Notes under the pieces: model-generated
What the model was told of the DNA's origin: nothing
Database searches by the model: none
The model's input: only the letters and a program-made list of their open reading frames with translations
NCBI RefSeq assembly: GCF_010731595.1
Contig: NZ_AP022582.1
Span: 3,100,001 to 3,164,000 of the forward strand
Length of the DNA stretch: 64,000 nt
From: Mycobacterium seoulense
GTDB lineage: Bacteria > Actinomycetota > Actinomycetes > Mycobacteriales > Mycobacteriaceae
Reading direction: 5' to 3'
Made by a program: the position numbers and the translations under genes
Part shown: one piece after another, positions 2,817 through 11,542 of the stretch
Position numbering within the stretch: position 1 is the first letter of the stretch
Layout of the letters: the number at the start of each line of letters is the position of its first letter

Positions 2817-4757
2817 ATGCAGCTGATCTGGCTGAATGTTGCCGATCTGATCGCGCAGGCCGGCGGCGACCCGTGGGCGATCAACCGGAGCCTGCAGGCC
2901 GGGAGCCCGCTCGAGATCTCTCAACTGGCGGGAGCCTTCCACGACGCGGGCCGGTGCACGGCCGAGGCGGACCATGCGTTCGAGCAAGCCCGGCAGCGTT
3001 TCGACGCGGCGTGGAACCACCAGAACGGCGACCACCCGATCAACGACTCCGCCGAGGTGCAGCGCACCGTCAAGTCGCTTGGGGCGCAGTCCCTGCAACT
3101 GCCCAAGATCGCGTCCGATCTGGAAAGCATCGCCGCCGCCCTGGCCGAGGCGCAAAGAGCAGGCGCTCAACAGATCGCCGCGCTGGAACGGCAATTGCAG
3201 CTGCTCGACAAACTGATCGGCGCGGCGATGGAGGATCTCAAAGATCGCAACCTCGACGCGAACAGCCGGTCCCAACTCGAATCGCTGATCAAGGACGCCA
3301 AAGCCGACGCCGCCGACGAGACCAGGGATGCCCTGCACCAGCTGCAGTCGATCCGCGACGGCTACTCCAACACGCTGCAGCAGTCACTGGGTGCCCTGCA
3401 CGGCGACGGATACGACCAGTCGGGTATCCAGGCGGTCGAGGGTCCGCTCTCGCCGGTGCCGGACCTGCCCGACGACCCCACGAAGTTCGCGCAGGTCTGG
3501 AGCACTCTGACGCCCGCGCAGAAAGACCGTGAGTACCAACGGAATCCGTTGATCGGCAACCACAACGGGATGCCCGCAGCGGACCGGGATCACTACAACC
3601 GGCTCGATCTCGCCGACGAACTGGGCCGCGCTCAGGCCGCCGCCGCGCAAGCCGACGCCCTGCGGGCCCAGCATCCCGATTGGGCTGAGGGCAAGAACAT
3701 TCCGGCCCCCAACGAGCCCGGGGCGATCTTCGACGATCGCCTCGCCTACGAGGCGTGGCAACGCCAATACGACGCCGCCCGGGATGGGGCCAAGTACCTG
3801 CCCGACCTGCAGGCCGTCGACAGAACCGTCAAGGCGAGCCCGGACCGCAAGCTCATGCTGCTGGACACCAAGACCGGCAAGCAGGCCCGGGCCGCGATCG
3901 CCGTCGGGGACCCTGACACGGCCACCCACGTATCGGTGACCGCGCCCGGCTTGAACACCACCGTTCGCGGCGCCATCGGCGGCATGGTGTCCGAGGCCAC
4001 CGACGTCAGGAAGGAAGCCCTGCGCCAATTGAACCTGACCCCCGGCCACGAACACGACACCGTCTCGGCGATCGCGTGGATCGGTTATGACCCGCCGCAG
4101 GTGCCGGGGTTCGACGATCTCGGCAAATCGTTCGCCGGTGGATGGGATGTCAGCCACGACGCCGTCGCCCGAGCCGGCGCCCATGACCTGGCCGGCTTCT
4201 ATGACGGGATACAGGCCGCCCACCACGGTGGGCCGGCCGACCTCACCGCGATCGGACACTCCTATGGGTCACTGACCACCGGGCTGGCCCTGCAAGAGCC
4301 CGGCGACCACGGGGTGTCACGGGCGCTGTTCTACGGCTCCCCCGGCATCGAAGCCTCCACACCCCAACAACTGCACCTGCAGCCCGGCCACGTGTTCACC
4401 ATGGAGACCCCCGACGACCCGATCCAATGGACGTACGACGGACCCGCCATCGCCCACGACGTGGCCCCGTTCCTCCCGCCGCCCTTCAGAGACCTCGCCG
4501 AAAGCATCTTGGGCACGGCCGACGCCACCGGCGCCGGCCACTTCGGCCCGAACCCGGCCACCAACCCCAACTTCACTCACCTGGCCACCGGCCCCGCCAC
4601 CGTTCCCGACGGCCACGGGGGCACCCTCACCCTCCAGGACGCGCACGGCCACAGCGATTACCCCCGCTTTCCCGACGGCGGAGGTCTCAGAACGACCAAC
4701 TACAACATCGCCGCCGTCCTCGCCGGACTGGGCGACAAGGCGGTTCCCACGAAGTGA
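2817..4757 (+). CDS. DUF1023-type alpha/beta hydrolase with long helical N-terminus
   Basis: A 646-residue protein. The first ~200 residues are Ala/Gln/Leu-rich and helical (for example ESIAAALAEAQRAGAQQIAA), resembling the WXG100-like or coiled segments that precede DUF1023 domains in actinobacteria. The C-terminal half holds an alpha/beta hydrolase fold with the nucleophile elbow GHSYG (Ser482) and a late H residue in ATGAGHFG or NFTHLATG as possible base. No signal peptide or transmembrane segment is seen. The stop overlaps the GTG of the next gene (GTGA), pairing it with an LppA-like lipoprotein; a similar hydrolase/lipoprotein neighbourhood exists around Rv2542-lppA in M. tuberculosis (from memory). 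Substrate unknown. Confidence 0.75.
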   Translation: MQLIWLNVADLIAQAGGDPWAINRSLQAGSPLEISQLAGAFHDAGRCTAEADHAFEQARQRFDAAWNHQNGDHPINDSAEVQRTVKSLGAQSLQLPKIASDLESIAAALAEAQRAGAQQIAALERQLQLLDKLIGAAMEDLKDRNLDANSRSQLESLIKDAKADAADETRDALHQLQSIRDGYSNTLQQSLGALHGDGYDQSGIQAVEGPLSPVPDLPDDPTKFAQVWSTLTPAQKDREYQRNPLIGNHNGMPAADRDHYNRLDLADELGRAQAAAAQADALRAQHPDWAEGKNIPAPNEPGAIFDDRLAYEAWQRQYDAARDGAKYLPDLQAVDRTVKASPDRKLMLLDTKTGKQARAAIAVGDPDTATHVSVTAPGLNTTVRGAIGGMVSEATDVRKEALRQLNLTPGHEHDTVSAIAWIGYDPPQVPGFDDLGKSFAGGWDVSHDAVARAGAHDLAGFYDGIQAAHHGGPADLTAIGHSYGSLTTGLALQEPGDHGVSRALFYGSPGIEASTPQQLHLQPGHVFTMETPDDPIQWTYDGPAIAHDVAPFLPPPFRDLAESILGTADATGAGHFGPNPATNPNFTHLATGPATVPDGHGGTLTLQDAHGHSDYPRFPDGGGLRTTNYNIAAVLAGLGDKAVPTK

Positions 4758-5326
4758 GCAACAACCGAGCAACCAGTTCCCGCAACCTGCGACGCCACCC
4801 GATCCTGTGCACCGCCGTGGCCGCACTCGCCCTAGCCGCAGGAGGATGCCACGTGTCCCAGCCCTACGCACCCACCCCGCCCAACGACGCCGCCAAGGCG
4901 CTACAGGTGCTCAAGTCCCTGCCCTCGTTCGAGGACACCCAGGCCCAGGTGCAAGCGGCGATGAACGAGATCACCGCCGCCGCAAGCCAAGTGGTTCCCT
5001 CGATCACCTGGGAGACGCCGCAGGAAGGCTCCGGCGACATCTGCGAGCGACCGTACGAGCAAACCGACGGGAAACGGTACTTCCTGCCCGACGCCGTGGC
5101 CGCCAACGTGCCGGTCTCCGAGCAACAGTGGGCGACCATCCAAGAGGCCGCCAAACAGGCGGCCGCCAAGCTCGGCGCGACCGACATGCAGGTGATGCAC
5201 AACAACCCCGGAAACCACGACGTGGGCTTCTACGGCCCCACCGGCATCTTCATCAAAATCGGCTACCGGGGAAACCTCGTCGTCTCGGGCTACACCGGCT
5301 GCCGACTGCCGCGTGACAAGAAATAG
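4754..5326 (+). CDS. LppA-like lipoprotein
   Basis: A 190-residue protein from GTG 4754, which overlaps the preceding stop by 4 nt. The N-terminus has a basic n-region (SSRNLRRHP), a hydrophobic stretch (LCTAVAALALAAGG) and a lipobox-type cysteine (AAGGC), so it should be exported and lipid-anchored. The mature part contains GDICERPYEQTDGKRYFLPD and SEQQWATIQEAAKQAAAKLG, which I recognise as the mycobacterial LppA/LppB family confined to pathogenic mycobacteria. Function unknown. Coupling to the hydrolase upstream suggests the two act together at the envelope. Confidence 0.75.
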   Translation: MSNNRATSSRNLRRHPILCTAVAALALAAGGCHVSQPYAPTPPNDAAKALQVLKSLPSFEDTQAQVQAAMNEITAAASQVVPSITWETPQEGSGDICERPYEQTDGKRYFLPDAVAANVPVSEQQWATIQEAAKQAAAKLGATDMQVMHNNPGNHDVGFYGPTGIFIKIGYRGNLVVSGYTGCRLPRDKK

Positions 5327-5361
5327 CCGGGCGACAAGCGACCCTGACCTGGTCAAACTTT

Positions 5362-5392
5362 GTGGAGCTAAGGGGATTCGAACCCCTGACCT
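5362..5392. repeat. Copy of tRNA-Ala 3' end (putative att site, distal)
   Basis: 31 bp here are identical to 10376-10406, which is the 3' end of the tRNA-Ala gene (T-arm, 3' acceptor strand and one flanking base). The copy has no anticodon arm or 5' half, so it is not a tRNA gene. Its orientation matches the intact gene, as expected when a tyrosine recombinase integrates at a tRNA 3' end and leaves a direct repeat at the far side. Short inverted arms CCTGGTC (5348-5354) and GACCAGG (5393-5399) flank the core and could be integrase core-type sites. Confidence 0.85.
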
Positions 5393-5522
5393 GACCAGGC
5401 AAAGTGCCGTTTCAACTGCGATTTCGCTCCGACTCGGTCCGATTCAGTCCCGCTCGTTACCTGCGGTTTCGTTCTCGGGTATTGACGGCGTCAAGACCGG
5501 TGAAAGGGCGCGGTGTAATTCG

Positions 5523-5672
5523 TCAAACCCGGGAGACGGTGATGTCTGCTTCGGTCAGGCGCGTGTATGCGGCGATGTCGGTGATGGCGATGCGGTGTCC
5601 TCGGGCATCCAGTGGACGGGCGAGGATCTGGACCCACGAGGCCGAAGACTATGCCGGCCGGTCGACACTCAT
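5523..5672 (-). pseudogene. Small frame interrupted by an in-frame amber codon
   Basis: Reading leftward from ATG 5672 gives MSVDRPA, then TAG (5649-5651), then SSASWVQILARPLDARGHRI and AITDIAAYTRLTEADITVSR before TGA at 5523-5525: 49 sense-or-amber codons in one frame. The part after TAG looks protein-like (alternating hydrophobics, a possible helix DIAAYTRLTEADI) and has no start of its own. It lies downstream of the S30AE-like gene. I do not recognise the family. It may be the remnant of a small island gene, or chance. Confidence 0.35.
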
Positions 5673-5749
5673 TGGTCGAACGAAGAGGCGGCAGCACGTC
5701 GGCGCGTGACTGCAACCCTGCGCGTACGGCGCAGACGACACTCGCGCGA

Positions 5750-6166
5750 CTACGGTGCAGGCGGGATGCGATGTCCCTGCGCCGAGGTGCCCGGGTGGCG
5801 GATCGTGTCGTGCCCGAGTTTGCGATTGTGCATGGGTTCGCGCGCCGACTTCTGGTGTTCGAGCTGCCGGATCAACTCATGCTTGGCGTCGTGAAGGGCG
5901 CGCGTGATGTCGCGGTTGTCGGCGACAGCCACGAGCGGCGGGAGACCAGGCAAGGTGGTTCGCAACGTGACGCGCTGCTCCTTGCGGCCGCGATCCTGCA
6001 ACGAGACTTCCAGGCTGATGTCAAGCGGGTCCCGCCGGCCCAGATGCGGCTCGAGCGTAGCCAACGCCTCCAGCACGTACAGACGTTCCTTGGCGACGAA
6101 TCCCGCACCCATGTGCAGGACGCACTCACCGAGCGGATTATGCGTTCTGTCGCGGGACCTTCTCAT
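5750..6166 (-). CDS. Short S30AE/HPF-like ribosome-associated protein
   Basis: A 138-residue protein whose residues ~30-110 match the ribosome hibernation factor/YfiA (S30AE) pattern: a first helix (YVLEALATLEPHL), paired strands (DISLEVSLQDRGRKEQRVTL), then TLPGLPPLVAVADNRDITRA and a second helix ending LIRQLEHQK, equivalent to the LxRQLxKxK end of HPF. The long C-terminal dimerisation domain of mycobacterial HPF is absent, so this is a short type. Such proteins bind the 30S subunit and block translation in stasis. It starts 16 bp after the GH130 stop and probably shares its transcript. Family assignment is by eye. Start ATG 6166 is uncertain. Confidence 0.62.
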   Translation of the reverse strand: MRRSRDRTHNPLGECVLHMGAGFVAKERLYVLEALATLEPHLGRRDPLDISLEVSLQDRGRKEQRVTLRTTLPGLPPLVAVADNRDITRALHDAKHELIRQLEHQKSAREPMHNRKLGHDTIRHPGTSAQGHRIPPAP

Positions 6167-6182
6167 CGTGCTTATGGTGACC

Positions 6183-7679
6183 TCATCTCTGGTGATCTGG
6201 TTGCTGAACGATCGTGGCCAGCAGCTGCCGAAGTGGCGCGGTGGCGATGCCGATGGCGCCGTCGGCGATCCCGTAGGGGATCACCAGGGTGTCGGCGTGA
6301 ACCAGCGCGCCGCAGGAGTAGACGACGTTGGGCACGTAGCCGTTCTGTTCGTCGTGGGAGGGGCTCAGCAGTGGGCGTCGCAGCCGGCCGAGCACCCGGG
6401 TCGGATCGTCGAGGTCAAGCAGAATCGCGCCGATGCTATACGTGCGCATGGGTCCGACGCCGTGCGTGAGCACTAGCCACCCTGCGTCGGTTTCGATTGG
6501 CGGGCCGCAATTTCCGAGTTGCACCGCTTCCCATGCCTCAGCCGGCTGCTGGCAGGGCGACGCGCTCGGCCAGACCGCCAGATGGTCGGCGAAGGCGACG
6601 CTGTTGGTCTCGCGGTCCGATCGCGACACGGCGGCGTAGCGACCGTGTATTCGTCGGGGGAACAATGCCAAACCTTTGTTAGCCGCGGCCTTCCCGACTA
6701 GCGGCCCGGAGGTGAAGGACTGGAAGTCCTTGGTCTTGAGCAGTTGTTGGCTGATGTGGGATCCGCTGTAAGCCGTGTAGGTGGCGTAGTAGGTGACCGA
6801 GCCGTCGTCGTCGACGAAGCGGACGAATCGGGCGTCCTCCATGCCAGCATGCTCGGCCTCCATCGAAGGCCACAGCACACGCTCGGAAACCGATACTTCG
6901 CTGGGGAATTCGACGGCATAGGATCGATCGGCGATCGCACGGATCAGGGCGACCGCGCGCTCCCCGTGTTCGCGGGTGCTTAGGTGGGCCCGGAGATTGT
7001 CGAGTCGCGCGTCGAGGTCGGATCGCGTGAAGCGGTCGCCGAGCGCATCGAGGACGTAGTTTGCGGCCTCGCCGGCATTCCCGATGCGGCCGAGTTCGCC
7101 GCGGAACACCGCGGTCTCGAGCAGCGCGCCCGACGCGCTTCCGGTGGTGGCGAAGCGGGTCGGCTCGTCGATCGTGACCCGGCCCCCAGCGTCGACGACA
7201 CCGGTGCGGAACCCGATGGACGAGCGGTGTCCTTCCCCGATCCCCCGCACGCTCATCACGAATCGCAGGCTGCCTGCCGCCATGACGGTCTGGTCGGGGT
7301 GGGCCACAATGCTGGGGTTGCAGAGCGCCGCCCCCTCGATGGCGTACTCGCTGGTAAAGGTCGCTCCCAGCAACAGCATTCGCGCATCGGAGAGGTGGAT
7401 GTCGGGATCCAGGCGGTCGGCGAGCTCGCGGGCGTGCCGACGGAACGTGCCCGCGAGGTCACGGTGGCGTCCGTCGAAGCGGATGATGATGTCGTCCAGG
7501 GACGACCGAACGTCTTCGTCGGTCAGCGCCAGGATGCGCTTGAGTACCACTCCCGCTCGGGACTCCTGACGCTCGAAGCCCTCCATGCCGGGCACGAAGA
7601 GCTGGGTGATCACCCGCGCCGCATTGGCCGCGATCCGGTGAGGGTCGCGGGTGACGAGCCCGGTGCGCGTCAAAGTCAT
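6183..7679 (-). CDS. GH130-family glycoside phosphorylase/beta-mannosidase
   Basis: A 498-residue protein from ATG 7679 (MTLTRTGLVTRDPHRIAANA). It looks like the long GH130 type: SVRGIGEGHRSSIGFRTGVV in the first blade region, FVDDDGSVTYYATYTAYSGS, LGNCGPPIETDAGWLVLTHG, and HDEQNGYVPNVVYSCGALVH with VIPYGIADGAIGIAT near the end, the closing motif of five-bladed GH130 propellers. The family contains beta-mannoside phosphorylases and a few inverting hydrolases; which one this is cannot be told without a structural alignment of the phosphate-binding residues. The ATG overlaps the stop of the upstream gene (ATGA). No signal peptide, so cytosolic. In the tRNA-Ala islet with a GT4 enzyme. Confidence 0.8.
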   Translation of the reverse strand: MTLTRTGLVTRDPHRIAANAARVITQLFVPGMEGFERQESRAGVVLKRILALTDEDVRSSLDDIIIRFDGRHRDLAGTFRRHARELADRLDPDIHLSDARMLLLGATFTSEYAIEGAALCNPSIVAHPDQTVMAAGSLRFVMSVRGIGEGHRSSIGFRTGVVDAGGRVTIDEPTRFATTGSASGALLETAVFRGELGRIGNAGEAANYVLDALGDRFTRSDLDARLDNLRAHLSTREHGERAVALIRAIADRSYAVEFPSEVSVSERVLWPSMEAEHAGMEDARFVRFVDDDGSVTYYATYTAYSGSHISQQLLKTKDFQSFTSGPLVGKAAANKGLALFPRRIHGRYAAVSRSDRETNSVAFADHLAVWPSASPCQQPAEAWEAVQLGNCGPPIETDAGWLVLTHGVGPMRTYSIGAILLDLDDPTRVLGRLRRPLLSPSHDEQNGYVPNVVYSCGALVHADTLVIPYGIADGAIGIATAPLRQLLATIVQQPDHQR

Positions 7680-8698
7680 TGTGGGACTAGCGAAAAGCGC
7701 CGCGTGTGTTGCAGGGTGGAGATCACCGCGAGGGTCGATTCGGCGCCCTGGTTGAGGTTGACGCACTCAGCGAGCAACCCGTCGAAACCACCACCGGTCT
7801 CCGTGTCCCACATGAGCAACCCGGAGTCGTTGGCGCCCTGGAACCAGGCGGCAGACGACCGGATCCCATCCGGCCAGAGCGGACGCGGATCGGCGGCTGC
7901 GGCGCGTGCGCAGGCGTCGGCGAGGGTGGCCACCTCGATCGGCTGCTGGTCGAAGGCGGGCCGGCTGTCCTGCGGTCCCCGGCCGCCCGCGGGGGCGGGC
8001 GACAGGTGGCCGCCAATCGTTTCGTAGTCGAGCAGCCACTCCAGCAGATCCAGGCCACGCTGTTTCAAGTCCGGGTCGTCCAGCGCGACGCCGGCAGCGA
8101 TCATCGCCTCGGGGAGAATCGCATTCGCGTAGGTGAGCCTTGGCTCGGGCCATGGCCAGTCGGACTTGGTCTCGGGTCTCGCGACCGTGGCGGCGTAGTC
8201 GGTGAGGAGTCGCAGGGCCGCGGAATTACCGGGCTCGACGCTGAGAAGTTCGGCGGCGCCGACGGCGGCGAACGACATCGCCCGCGGCCACGGTGACCTG
8301 GCCTTAGCAGCGCGCTCGAACTGAATCACGGCCAGTCGGCTCACCAGGCTGACGTCGCTGTGGGCGGCGGCAGTGCCGAGCCCCCAGACGCAGCGGCCCC
8401 AGTGGTCGTCTGTGGTGGGCTGGTCGGTCCAATGTCCGACGTGGTCCATCCGGTTGCGGCAGGAGCCGTTGTAGGACTGGGCGTCATTCAAGAACTGCAG
8501 GGCCTTGCGGGCGAGGCCGTTCACGGCACCTGGTGCGTCGGGCTCGCGGGTGGTGACGACGAGCACCCTGGCCATGTCGTCGGTGCAGTACCCGTGCTCA
8601 CGGCGGGGCACGGTCATGCAGGCGTGCTCGAAGGTGGCACGATGGTCCGTCATTCGCAGCAGGTGCGCGAACACCGGGGTGGGCGCGGCGCCGGTCAC
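7676..8698 (-). CDS. Six-hairpin (alpha/alpha-barrel) glycosidase-like protein
   Basis: A 340-residue protein from GTG 8698. The opening HLLRMTDHRATFEHACMTVP followed by RREHGYCTDDMARVLVV is the pattern I associate with the C-terminal half of bacterial proteins in which it is fused behind a GT4 domain. The remainder (DHWGRCVWGLGTAA, PWPEPRLTYANAILPEAMIA, WFQGANDSGLLMWD, GGGFDGLLAECVNLNQGAES) fits an alpha/alpha toroid of the six-hairpin glycosidase clan. The separate GT4 gene directly upstream (GTGA overlap) supports a split version of the fused arrangement. Cytosolic by lack of signal. Catalytic residues not assigned; it may be a glycosidase, an epimerase or a non-catalytic partner. Confidence 0.65.
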   Translation of the reverse strand: MTGAAPTPVFAHLLRMTDHRATFEHACMTVPRREHGYCTDDMARVLVVTTREPDAPGAVNGLARKALQFLNDAQSYNGSCRNRMDHVGHWTDQPTTDDHWGRCVWGLGTAAAHSDVSLVSRLAVIQFERAAKARSPWPRAMSFAAVGAAELLSVEPGNSAALRLLTDYAATVARPETKSDWPWPEPRLTYANAILPEAMIAAGVALDDPDLKQRGLDLLEWLLDYETIGGHLSPAPAGGRGPQDSRPAFDQQPIEVATLADACARAAAADPRPLWPDGIRSSAAWFQGANDSGLLMWDTETGGGFDGLLAECVNLNQGAESTLAVISTLQHTRRFSLVPQ

Positions 8699-9828
8699 GT
8701 CAGCGCGGACTGAGTAGCCAGCAGCCGTTGCGCCACGCCGACGTAGGCGTTGGCGACGACGGGCCAGGCGATCGTCGGGGCCAGTCCGCGGGCTTCGGCG
8801 GCCATGGACTCGGCGACTTGCGGATCGGTCAACAGCCGGCGCAGCGCTGCGACCAGTGCGTCGGGATCGTCGTGAGCAACGACGGTGCCCGCGCCGCTGC
8901 CGAGGAGCTCGACCGCGTGCGGGAAAGCGGTGGCGACGATCGGGCGGCCACTCGCGACGGAGTCGACCAGCACACCGGAGGTGACCTGGTCTTTCGAGTC
9001 GTAGGGCAGGACGACGACGGTAGCCGTCTGGATGAGCGCGGTGAGCTCTTCGGGGGTGCGGTACACGGCGTCGAAGGACACCGAATCGGCGACGCCGAGG
9101 CGTTTCGCGTGCGCGACAAGTGCTTCGCGATATCTTTCCCCCTGCGCGGCGAGGACCTTGGGGTGAGTGCGGCCGGCGATGATGTACCGCGGCGGGTTGG
9201 GCAGGTTCTTGAGCGAAGCCATGGCGTCGATGACCCGCTCGATGCCCTTGCCCGGTCCCAGCAGACCCCAGGTCAACATGGTCGACCGGTCAGGATGGTG
9301 CACGCCATTGGTCCTGGGGAGCGCCGCGCCGTGCGGAATGATGGTGATTTTGTGGCGGTCGACGGCGAAGCCTGCGCACAGGCGTTGGCGGGCCACCTCC
9401 GACATCACGATCACTTGATCGGCCAATGCTATCACCGATTCGAGCACCGAAAGTTGGTGTGGTGTCGGATGTTTGAGCACTGTGTGAACGACGACGATCG
9501 ACGGGACGCGCAATCCGGCCATGATCTGGACGACTTCGTCTCCGTCGGGACCGCCATAGATGCCGTACTCGTGCTGGATGACGGCGACGTCGCTCCGGTT
9601 GAGGAGCTCGAAGGTTGCCTCTACGGACGAAGCCGAGCCGTTGACGAGCTCGCCGGCGACGTTGGGCTCCTCGGAGACGTCACCGTCGGCGATGCGCACG
9701 ACATTGACGTTGGCGCCTCTGGCTGTCAATCCGCCTGCCAGGGCTGCGCTAAAGGTCGCCAGGCCGCATGGTGTCGGCGAATAGGTGCCGAGGATGCCAA
9801 AACTCGGCATGTACGAAAAGTGTTGCAT
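8695..9828 (-). CDS. GT4-family glycosyltransferase
   Basis: About 377 residues from ATG 9828 (MQHFSYMPSFGILGTYSPTP). The N-terminal nucleotide-fold loop GILGTYSPTPCGLATFSAAL is typical of GT4 enzymes in this subgroup. The C-terminal Rossmann fold has TWGLLGPGKGIERVIDAM (donor-phosphate loop) and DQVTSGVLVDSVASGRPIVA in place of the usual E-x7-E motif. An alternative TTG start at 9873 adds 15 residues. It heads the islet operon and overlaps the next gene by GTGA. Donor and acceptor sugars are unknown; the GH130 neighbour suggests mannose or GDP-mannose chemistry, which is inference. Confidence 0.85.
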   Translation of the reverse strand: MQHFSYMPSFGILGTYSPTPCGLATFSAALAGGLTARGANVNVVRIADGDVSEEPNVAGELVNGSASSVEATFELLNRSDVAVIQHEYGIYGGPDGDEVVQIMAGLRVPSIVVVHTVLKHPTPHQLSVLESVIALADQVIVMSEVARQRLCAGFAVDRHKITIIPHGAALPRTNGVHHPDRSTMLTWGLLGPGKGIERVIDAMASLKNLPNPPRYIIAGRTHPKVLAAQGERYREALVAHAKRLGVADSVSFDAVYRTPEELTALIQTATVVVLPYDSKDQVTSGVLVDSVASGRPIVATAFPHAVELLGSGAGTVVAHDDPDALVAALRRLLTDPQVAESMAAEARGLAPTIAWPVVANAYVGVAQRLLATQSALT

Positions 9829-10026
9829 CCCAAAGGGAGCAATCAACGGCTGAAACAACGATGGAACATTCAAAATTATCCCGACTGAACGGTAAATACT
9901 AACGATGGGTCCGGCGTGAGCGGATGCTCGGGCAGATCAGCGTCATAAGCTGAGCCATTCCGGATGGGCTGGGAGTACCAGCACCCCTCACGCTACACCC
10001 TCACCGGCCGAAAGGCGTGGTCTGCA

Positions 10027-10045
10027 CTTTGCGGTCACCGCAAAG
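10027..10045. repeat. Perfect 19-nt inverted repeat
   Basis: CTTTGCGGTCACCGCAAAG: 9-bp arms around a single C. It may be an operator, an excisionase/integrase arm site or the stem of a terminator. It lies within the islet, 330 bp from the tRNA. Confidence 0.6.
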
Positions 10046-10070
10046 GGTTTGCACGATGGCGAGACGCTTG

Positions 10071-10100
10071 CGTTCGGTGTTCTCACGTTCGGTGTTCTCA
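10071..10100. repeat. Tandem 15-bp repeat, two exact copies
   Basis: CGTTCGGTGTTCTCA occurs at 10071-10085 and again immediately at 10086-10100. Two exact abutting copies could be recombinase arm-type sites or simple slippage. There is no further copy nearby. Confidence 0.7.
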
Positions 10101-10375
10101 AACGTGTGTGGATGCCGCCGCGGTTTGGCGCTGTCGAAGACAGTTTTCGTCATACCAGCAGCCTTGGCGCGGCGCTCTGTTGGTCCGACGTTTGGCGCGA
10201 AGCTGAGCCCCACATGGCGAACGCGCACTCCAGCGCCAGCCCTATATCAGTCGGTGCGGATCAGGTCCCGTCACACCTTGCATGGCCACGGCAGCAGATT
10301 TCACGCCGAATCTTGACGGGAGTCTTGACCTGAGGTTCGGGTAAACCGCTTTCGATCCCTGAACCGCTGTCTCCA

Positions 10376-10406
10376 GTGGAGCTAAGGGGATTCGAACCCC
10401 TGACCT
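10376..10406. repeat. tRNA-Ala 3' end repeat (proximal att site)
   Basis: The 31-bp segment identical to 5362-5392. Here it forms the 3' end of the intact tRNA-Ala gene plus one base beyond the discriminator, so integration restored a functional tRNA. Confidence 0.85.
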
Positions 10407-10449
10407 ACTCGATGCGAACGAGTCGCGCTACCAACTGCGCCATAGCCCC
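10377..10449 (-). tRNA. tRNA-Ala, anticodon CGC
   Basis: 73 nt on the leftward strand starting GGGGCTATGGCGCAG. The acceptor stem GGGGCTA pairs with TAGCTCC plus discriminator A. The anticodon stem ACTCG/CGAGT encloses the loop TTCGCAT with anticodon CGC (reads GCG). The T-arm is AGGGGTTCGAATCCCCT. CCA is not encoded. It is the integration site of the islet to its left. Confidence 0.97.
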
Positions 10450-10495
10450 TGATCGCTAGCAGGCTACCAGCCGCGGCCCGAACCGCCGAACCGCA

Positions 10496-11542
10496 CTACT
10501 CGCCGACGGCCCGCGGCAAGTCCCTGGACCAGCCGTAGTGGCGCATCGGCATCGCGTAGTCCAGATGCTCGAAGATTGGGTCCTCGTCGTCGATCTCCAG
10601 AACCACTGCGCCCGGGCGCCGCAGCCGCGACGGCACCACGTCGTAGTCGCGGTCGTAGGCGTTCTCCACGCCCATCCGCGCCCGCGCCATCCGCTGCATC
10701 CGCCGGCGACGCACCTTCTCCTCGATGCGGGTCTGGCGCCGCAGGTAACCCAGGTAGAGCAGGGTCACGGCGGTGGCGGTGCCGCACACCCACCAGGCGC
10801 TGGGCGAGATCTTGAACGCGGCCGTGGCCGAGCCCACCAGCACCACCGCCATCACCATCAGCACGCGCTTGCGGAATTTGTACTTGCGGGCGCTGACGGC
10901 GGCCGCGGTCTTCGCATCGAACCGGCGGCGCCGCGAGGCGTTCCGCGGCACCGGCGCCGGCATTTCCTCGTCGTCGGCTTCCGCCTCGGGCTCCAACCCG
11001 GAGGAGTCCTCGATGTATTCGTAGCCCTCGTCGTCCTCCTCGTCGCCGGCGTGGGCGACGACGTCGGTGTCGGACTCCTCGTCGTCCTCGTCGGCGTCGG
11101 CTTCCTCCTCGACCACCGCAGCGACGCCGGCCGGGAGCGCCTGCGAATCCTCGACGACGTCGACGTCGAGGTACTCGGGCTCGGTGCGCTCGGACGCCGC
11201 GGCCTTCACGACCACCGGACGCAGCTGGCGCAGCTCGTCGGTGTCGTCGTCGCCGCGTTCTTCGTCGTCGTCCTCGTCCGCGGCGAGGTCACGCTCGTCG
11301 TCGAGCACGTTGTCGGCCGCCTCTTCCGGCGGCTGCCAGTCGGGATCGCTGCGGTGCCCGGCGGCCGGACCGCTGCGTTTGATCAGCCGCGACTTCGCCC
11401 CGCCGTTGAGGACCCGGGTGGCCAGGGCCACGTCGCTGGTGCGCCGCACGGCGTCGCGTTTGCTGACGAGCATCGGCACCAAGACGAACAGCCAGAGCAC
11501 TACGAGCGAGATCCACAACAGTGACTGCGGAATGCTTGGCAT
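10496..11542 (-). CDS. GlpR/SepX-like divisome membrane protein (Rv0996-type)
   Basis: 348 residues from ATG 11542 (MPSIPQSLLWISLVVLWLFV). An N-terminal membrane segment (LLWISLVVLWLFVLVPML) is followed by a very acidic, disordered linker of about 150 residues (runs of D/E) and then two more membrane segments (VLMVMAVVLVGSATAAF and WWVCGTATAVTLLYLGYL), ending in a basic then conserved cytoplasmic tail. This architecture and the gene order galU-moeA/glp-rimJ-this match the actinobacterial septal protein called SepX in Streptomyces and GlpR in Corynebacterium, the membrane receptor of the gephyrin-like Glp. It probably links Glp/FtsZ to the septal membrane. Function is by homology and synteny. 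Confidence 0.78.
   Translation of the reverse strand: MPSIPQSLLWISLVVLWLFVLVPMLVSKRDAVRRTSDVALATRVLNGGAKSRLIKRSGPAAGHRSDPDWQPPEEAADNVLDDERDLAADEDDDEERGDDDTDELRQLRPVVVKAAASERTEPEYLDVDVVEDSQALPAGVAAVVEEEADADEDDEESDTDVVAHAGDEEDDEGYEYIEDSSGLEPEAEADDEEMPAPVPRNASRRRRFDAKTAAAVSARKYKFRKRVLMVMAVVLVGSATAAFKISPSAWWVCGTATAVTLLYLGYLRRQTRIEEKVRRRRMQRMARARMGVENAYDRDYDVVPSRLRRPGAVVLEIDDEDPIFEHLDYAMPMRHYGWSRDLPRAVGE

Follow-up and report, generated by a model that had tools for sequence, protein, structure and literature searches.

The four-gene islet at a tRNA-Ala gene

The DNA analysed here (the window) is a stretch of 64,000 nucleotides from the genome of Mycobacterium seoulense (contig NZ_AP022582.1, positions 3,100,001 to 3,164,000), which consists of a single contig of 5.53 Mb. 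Within it lies a 5-kb islet carrying four leftward genes, which code for a GT4 glycosyltransferase, a six-hairpin-type protein (SHP), a GH130 enzyme and a short S30AE/HPF-like protein and are preceded by a conserved leader element of about 116 nt (Table 1). As an earlier note made from the sequence alone had described, GT4 and SHP (8695-8698) as well as SHP and GH130 (7676-7679) overlap by 4 nt each, and a 16-nt gap separates GH130 from the S30AE-like gene. The layout is operon-like, with tight overlaps and a short gap on one strand, and the four genes are probably co-transcribed as one unit. The list of open reading frames also offers a longer GTG start for GH130 at 7766; the ATG at 7679 was preferred because it gives a 4-nt overlap here too. 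For GT4, relatives support the TTG start at 9873.

Table 1. Features of the islet and its tRNA target (window coordinates; lengths in amino acids, aa, or nucleotides, nt).
Feature	Position	Strand	Basis
tRNA-Ala(CGC), integration target	10376-10449	-	ARAGORN; Rfam RF00005
att-like direct repeat, 31 nt, at tRNA 3′ end	10376-10406		100% identical to 5362-5392
-10-like box TAGCGT (TANNNT), opens the conserved element; putative role	9990-9995	-	sequence and alignments
conserved leader element (model R1), with GTCGGGAT Shine-Dalgarno-like stretch, ends directly before GT4 TTG	9874-9994	-	118.1 bits
GT4 glycosyltransferase, 392 aa	8695-9873	-	PF00534, 64.4 bits (cut-off 26.4)
SHP, (alpha/alpha)6-barrel glycosidase-like protein, 340 aa	7676-8698	-
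GH130, long form, 498 aa	6183-7679	-	PF04041, 115.5 bits (cut-off 26)
short S30AE/HPF-like protein, 138 aa	5750-6166	-	PF02482, 20.3 bits (below cut-off 23.7)
fatty-acid desaturase gene remnant, downstream of cassette	5541-5714	-	DNA match to two L157 genes (PF00487)
att-like direct repeat, 31 nt, distal copy	5362-5392		repeat search; comparison with relatives

The islet is bounded by two exact 31-nt repeats spaced 5,014 bp apart, which correspond to the 3′ end of the tRNA-Ala(CGC) gene. Sixty-one genomes matched the tRNA region, and 19 relatives with a tRNA flank (L179-L197; L and G numbers denote loci and genomes) were compared over about 1.5 kb on the islet side. Eighteen of them showed no match to islet DNA in this flank and appear empty, the exception being L188, which matches only the last stretch of the islet (10285-10375). 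In 10 of the 19 relatives the match continues from the tRNA end for 9-34 nt into the left flank of the window (e.g. L179, window 5336-5392), as expected for an empty site, although these matches are short. The exact repeats at the tRNA 3′ end and the empty-looking relatives, with this reservation about the length of the flank matches, identify a tRNA-targeted islet, in line with the earlier proposal. No integrase is encoded between the repeats, where only the four genes and two gaps of less than 0.6 kb are found, and a plasmid origin was rejected, as no near match was present among 72,556 plasmid records. Among 20 other cassette loci compared, a tRNA-Ala gene or a 25-33-nt match to the repeat lies 0.04-5.5 kb from the cassette in L061, L062, L063/L151 (one contig), L148, L149, L152, L153 and the decayed L164, so the association with tRNA-Ala recurs. 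To the left of the islet (window 2817-5326) lie two genes, one coding for an LppA lipoprotein (PF16708) and the other for an alpha/beta hydrolase whose N-terminal domain is helical (PF22905).

Desaturase frames such as the one from which the remnant in the islet derives were found in 32 of 198 loci, many of which overlap, and often lie directly 3′ of GH130 or S30AE; since the host genome contains eight desaturase matches above the Pfam cut-off, some of these neighbours are possibly there by chance.

Distribution of the trio and predicted activities of its proteins

Near-full-length relatives of GH130 are present in 114 of 396 same-genus genomes (118 genomes minus G189, G275, G325 and G355, whose matches are fragments or distant) and in 13 of 395 other genomes drawn from the phylum (L032-L044). 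The earlier note had suggested a genome-neighbourhood search for the GT4-SHP-GH130 trio. In a wide scan with one genome per species (84,980 species), at least 80 loci were found, 52 of which had enough flanking sequence for the trio to be checked; judged by record titles, the listed loci belong to about ten phyla (Actinomycetota, Spirochaetes, Planctomycetota, Verrucomicrobia, Desulfobacterota, Gammaproteobacteria, Bacteroidetes, Myxococcota, Fibrobacter, Gastranaerophilales and others). Among the matches listed, the trio was complete in 46 of the 52 well-flanked loci (15/17 mycobacterial, 14/16 other actinobacterial and 17/19 other-phylum loci), and GT4 and SHP were fused in all 17 non-actinobacterial trios, as the earlier note had stated for other bacteria, and separate in all 29 actinobacterial ones. 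The trio is thus widespread and not confined to mycobacteria. Exceptions were L071 and L073 (GT4-GH130 without SHP), L090, L129 and L140 (a partner missing or diverged) and L138 (both partners absent). The 19 other-phylum loci listed contained a further GT4 gene in 12 and a second GH130 gene in 10 cases, and a second GT4 family occurred in 22 of the 61 loci with called genes. As gene calling in these neighbourhoods was rough, only genes checked against profiles are named here.

Several loci showed unusual arrangements. L176 (G185:C2) carries GT4-GH130 without SHP and, about 13 kb further on, a GT4-SHP-S30AE-desaturase set without GH130, each with its own leader. Candidatus Mycobacterium methanotrophicum (NZ_CP097320.1) has two cassette copies (L061 and L062), the second with about 0.9 kb of extra DNA between leader and GT4. 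Near cassette L149, a phosphomannomutase-type and an MFS gene lie beyond the tRNA and are probably outside the cassette.

The best solved matches of GH130 are beta-1,2-mannoside phosphorylases (9fj8, E = 1.9e-47; 7fip, 5.3e-44; 5b0p, 5.6e-39). Eight positions (N121, R145, D282, R353, H406, R412, Y414 and D473) are invariant in 125 of 125 long GH130 sequences and K335 is kept in 124, these rows including some overlapping copies of one locus. Three mannose-binding residues have been named for Teth514_1788, Asn28, Asp92 and Asp281 (PMC4264767, seen in part). By way of 9fj8 and 7fip, D282 and D473 can be matched to the two mannose-binding Asp residues of Teth514_1788/1789. N121, part of an invariant NP motif that the alignments with solved structures do not reach, is the candidate mannose-binding Asn. 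According to the parts of PMC4599007 consulted, a lysine (BT3780 Lys199) marks the beta-1,2 linkage, and GH130 hydrolases do not have the three basic phosphate-binding residues. K335 aligns with the Lys of three beta-1,2 enzymes (9fj8, 7fip and 5b0p) and is on this basis the putative equivalent of Lys199 of BT3780, an enzyme outside this alignment; the beta-1,4 enzyme TM1225 has Arg here, as does the single short GH130 examined (L118), whose nearest relative is TM1225. Candidates for phosphate-binding residues are R353 and H406, which are matched by an Arg and a His in characterised phosphorylases. The assignment to GH130 made in the earlier note holds: the PF04041 score is above the cut-off and both active-site Asp residues are invariant. 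Since these residues, the candidate Asn and the putative beta-1,2-type lysine are kept, the protein is likely to be a cytosolic beta-mannoside phosphorylase; a phosphorylase is more likely than a hydrolase on these residues, and a beta-1,2 linkage of its substrate is predicted. It shares the Asp residues and the putative beta-1,2-type lysine with the beta-1,2-mannobiose/1,2-beta-oligomannan phosphorylases Teth514_1789, Teth514_1788 and Lin0857, but differs from them in its length of about 500 aa, which includes a long conserved N-terminal region outside the local alignments, in having EDAR in place of the EDPR motif, and in its partners GT4 and SHP.

The only convincing sequence relative of SHP in the PDB, which is also its best fold match, is 7tem (putative exported protein YPO2471; E = 6.5e-24), a protein titled as exported whose listing gives no function; SHP is predicted to be a glycosidase-like partner of GT4. 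PDB matches of the GT4 protein itself are weak (best 1.4e-5). The second GT4 of one non-actinobacterial cassette (L099:4805-5836) is close to the glucosylsucrose synthase TeGSS (7fg9; E = 2.3e-88; PMC9909042, seen in part), hinting at a sucrose-like or glucosyl acceptor in that cassette; the relative of TeGSS is this second GT4 and not the window protein.

The S30AE-like protein scores below the Pfam cut-off (Table 1), and 17 of 20 members of its family match PF02482 at E ≤ 0.01 (best 2e-5). In a Foldseek search with its structure model (pLDDT 74.9), ranks 1-25 were all hibernation-factor/protein Y entries (E = 3e-5 to 4e-3), so that, as judged from the predicted fold, it is a one-domain HPF-like protein. 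According to the parts of PMC10799931 consulted, the mycobacterial hibernation factors MPY (RafS) and RafH have the same S30AE fold but two domains, which sets the islet protein apart as a further, mobile type; two longer S30AE frames elsewhere in the host genome (234 and 369 aa) resemble MPY/RafH by eye. The short gene occurs in 51 of 396 same-genus genomes. By a hand count from match tables it lies within 3 kb of a near-full-length GH130 gene in 29 of these, 9-21 kb from GH130 on the same contig in four (G033, G097, G179 and G185) and beside a GH130 remnant in one (G189), and 17 have no GH130 match. It thus accompanies 29 of 114 mycobacterial cassettes and, among the matches listed, none of 35 non-mycobacterial ones. 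Of the module proposed in the earlier note, the islet, the layout, GH130, the trio, the fusion and the HPF fold stand, whereas the hibernation protein is not a constant partner. In some of the genomes without a GH130 match its neighbours are GAF-ANTAR, GreA-type, wax-ester-synthase or other genes. The host genome contains a second, disrupted short copy (G000:C1:4025726-4026102; L175) in a region with desaturases and leader copies, and in one relative a gene of the alpha-mannanase family GH76 directly follows the S30AE-like gene (L154:7610-8815).

A conserved leader before GT4 and some stress-type genes

The most valuable result, absent from the earlier note, is a conserved element, a 5′ sequence that GT4 cassettes share with some stress-type genes. 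It runs from the -10-like box to the GT4 start codon. The covariance model R1 was built from 34 leaders (alignment A8), whose own matches are therefore found by construction; it gave 44 matches in 68 sources (without L064 and L066, which were included in a separate scan) and, at E ≤ 0.1, none in the 24 non-mycobacterial cassette loci among these. A match was present in 28 of 32 GH130-bearing genomes with handles G000-G117 (counted by hand, assuming that these are the 118 genomes of the genus survey); in G097 the copy lies before GH130 itself. The genus survey yielded 63 matches in 39 of 118 genomes: the window copy and 29 loci (L215-L243), 24 further places (including two repeats), four in the own genome and seven assigned to cassettes by coordinates alone. 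Gaps to the next start were measured to the longest nearby frame, with ATG, GTG and TTG allowed as start codons. In all of the best 29 survey loci the leader ends 1-7 nt before the start of a GT4-family gene, which is TTG in 28, and this pairing also occurs in genomes without GH130 (e.g. G002, G055 and G065).

Of the 24 further places, 13 lie before GT4. Among the remaining 11, one is 2 nt before a 66-aa frame and the others are 62-284 nt from the next gene, namely P-type ATPase genes in two genomes (74.8 and 60.6 bits; the first fits a proton-efflux model), an S30AE protein scoring 26.4 bits, above its Pfam cut-off, and genes coding for SRPBCC, GAF-ANTAR, a GAF-HisKA_3 kinase, a CRP-type regulator, a desaturase, GH130 and an unassigned 169-aa frame. 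Five copies were found in the host genome at E ≤ 1e-5: at the cassette, at a lone GT4 gene (671,876), 1 nt upstream of a 114-aa frame, some 690 nt upstream of a desaturase and 24 nt upstream of a 271-aa frame, neither the 114-aa nor the 271-aa frame having a Pfam or NCBIfam match. A weaker sixth copy (16.8 bits) lies 2 nt before an alpha/beta hydrolase gene followed by a desaturase, an order repeated in G203 (L170; 25.2 bits, 7 nt), where further copies precede SHP and S30AE (73.4 bits, 0 nt), STAS (26.4 bits, 0 nt) and a desaturase (45.5 bits, 126 nt). Loosely spaced placements are weaker evidence. The link to stress physiology is better carried by the common leader than by the S30AE gene.

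In L247 (2024-2356) two matches (42.1 and 39.5 bits) face apart with about 100 nt between them, one before an SRPBCC (polyketide cyclase-type) gene, and in L164 (G189:C18, 5012-5803) an internal deletion has removed GT4-SHP and most of GH130, leaving the leader and the S30AE-like frame.

The structure model comprises a hairpin P0 and a helix P1 (UCCGG/CCGGA) enclosing P2 (UCAGC/GCUGA) and P3 (GAGC/GCUC). In an alignment made from sequence only, 87.6% of cells are paired, compared with 21.5-41.5% when slid, and among 500 shuffles two reached the observed number of paired cells and six that of further pair types. In the model-fitted alignment A9, which leans towards structure, 9 of 19 pairs change on both sides, a number reached by one of 500 shuffles, and none reached the observed paired cells, further pair types or covariation score. 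Over the Shine-Dalgarno-like stretch, CCCGA could pair with TCGGG; this pairing is kept in 90.6% of cells, in a helix that hardly varies, and may possibly act as a switch. Overall, the evidence for an RNA structure is moderate.

Searches with Rfam 15 gave nothing over gathering in the leaders of L065, L068, L071, L074 and L160, only matches far under gathering for two leaders at E ≤ 5, and in window 5200-10600 only the tRNA and a sub-threshold tmRNA-like match. An ANTAR-target RNA was considered because a GAF-ANTAR gene lies near S30AE and another near a leader copy; it was rejected, as two hairpins with what we take to be the A1/G4 hexaloop motif occur in none of 47 leaders, and one such hairpin is present in 8 of 47 (shuffles: mean 5.35, range 2-10). 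DosR control was likewise rejected, the best match to the presumed DosR box having 7/20 mismatches in 36 upstream regions (three of them of second GT4 genes). A conserved upstream open reading frame was dismissed, by eye only, because differences in linker length are not multiples of three and substitutions show no evident third-position bias.

Proposed system and alternative explanations

We propose, with a probability of about 0.5, that the cassette on the mobile islet is transcribed as one unit and serves cytosolic beta-mannoside metabolism under a leader common to stress-type genes. The retaining, NDP-sugar-dependent GT4 would make a glycoside core or primer, on which the long GH130 would extend or phosphorolyse beta-linked mannose in exchange with alpha-mannose-1-phosphate, and SHP would trim or cleave the product, which, as suggested in the earlier note, could be a small reserve or compatible solute; a quarter of the mycobacterial cassettes also have a one-domain HPF-like protein next to the trio. 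The leader would place the cassette under common control with other GT4 and stress-type genes, probably by acting as RNA close to the ribosome-binding site.

Several observations speak against this proposal. GT4 is expected to form alpha links and therefore would not itself make the beta-mannoside, and the cassette is not consistently accompanied by any sugar-nucleotide or mannose-phosphate gene. Four of the 32 cassette genomes have no leader match (G020, G021, G032 and G106), leaders at non-GT4 genes score 16.8-74.8 bits compared with 52.9-121.9 bits at GT4 genes, and many of the former lie 62-690 nt from the next start. With respect to the RNA, the sequence-only alignment shows modest covariation (its score is reached by 31 of 500 shuffles, and its number of pairs changed on both sides by 43), the RNAalifold consensus fold is weak (-2.8 and -2.4 kcal/mol), and the window leader alone folds at an unremarkable z of -1.29.

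Because of the weak fold, the unremarkable z and the modest covariation, a function at the DNA level has to be considered. That the element is a DNA control region, i.e. a promoter with an operator for a common regulator, rather than a structured leader RNA, would also explain why it opens at a -10-like box and is conserved chiefly in sequence; we hold this to be possible, though doubtful, given that in all 29 survey loci the element runs about 115 nt past the box, as far as the Shine-Dalgarno-like stretch and the start codon, that its pairs persist where slid controls fail, and that the pairing over the Shine-Dalgarno-like stretch is kept, even if it barely varies.

A more far-reaching version of the RNA reading, which we offer tentatively, is that the element is an undescribed mycobacterial cis-regulatory RNA that masks or frees the ribosome-binding site and defines a dormancy or cold/desiccation regulon of beta-mannoside-making GT4 cassettes, desaturases, hibernation factors, proton ATPase and sensor kinases, with the trio making a new bacterial beta-mannoside reserve or protectant spread by a mobile islet. 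If true, a widespread uncharacterised carbohydrate system would gain testable chemistry, and in mycobacteria a candidate stress regulon at the RNA level, apparently lying outside DosR, would join sugar metabolism, membrane desaturation and ribosome hibernation. No description of the trio in mycobacteria or of such a leader was found in the parts of the open-access PMC literature consulted, and as far as this literature covers it the cassette is uncharacterised.

Salvage of beta-mannosides taken up from outside appears unlikely. The known GH130 phosphorylases are described as catabolic in the parts of PMC8950772 and PMC4264767 consulted, and the Thermoanaerobacter GDP-mannose salvage cluster (PMC4264767) likewise has GH130 beside GT4, but that cluster adds an ABC transporter, a GH5 enzyme and a mannose-1-P guanylyltransferase, and the text seen names no SHP. 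Transporter neighbours are rare in the 61 loci with called genes (the most frequent one, an ABC ATPase, in four and MFS in two, under strict clustering and rough gene calls), and the constant partner of GH130 is a glycosyltransferase, joined by the second GT4 family mentioned above. Another of the closest known systems is the mannogen system of Leishmania (GT108; PMC8950772), which has a GH130-like fold and in which a beta-1,2-mannan is made and recycled; it is eukaryotic and belongs to a separate family, and the sections consulted do not mention GT4 or SHP partners.

It is improbable, though the pairing with a mannoside phosphorylase would be a natural one, that SHP belongs to the sugar 2-epimerases of AGE/cellobiose 2-epimerase type. 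Least credible is that the islet is decaying cargo kept by chance with the S30AE gene as a passenger, an explanation to which the optional S30AE gene, the deletion in G189 and the desaturase remnant would lend themselves, since reading frames are intact, active sites invariant and the leader conserved, and even G189 retains its leader (115.1 bits) and an 89%-identical S30AE frame free of stops.

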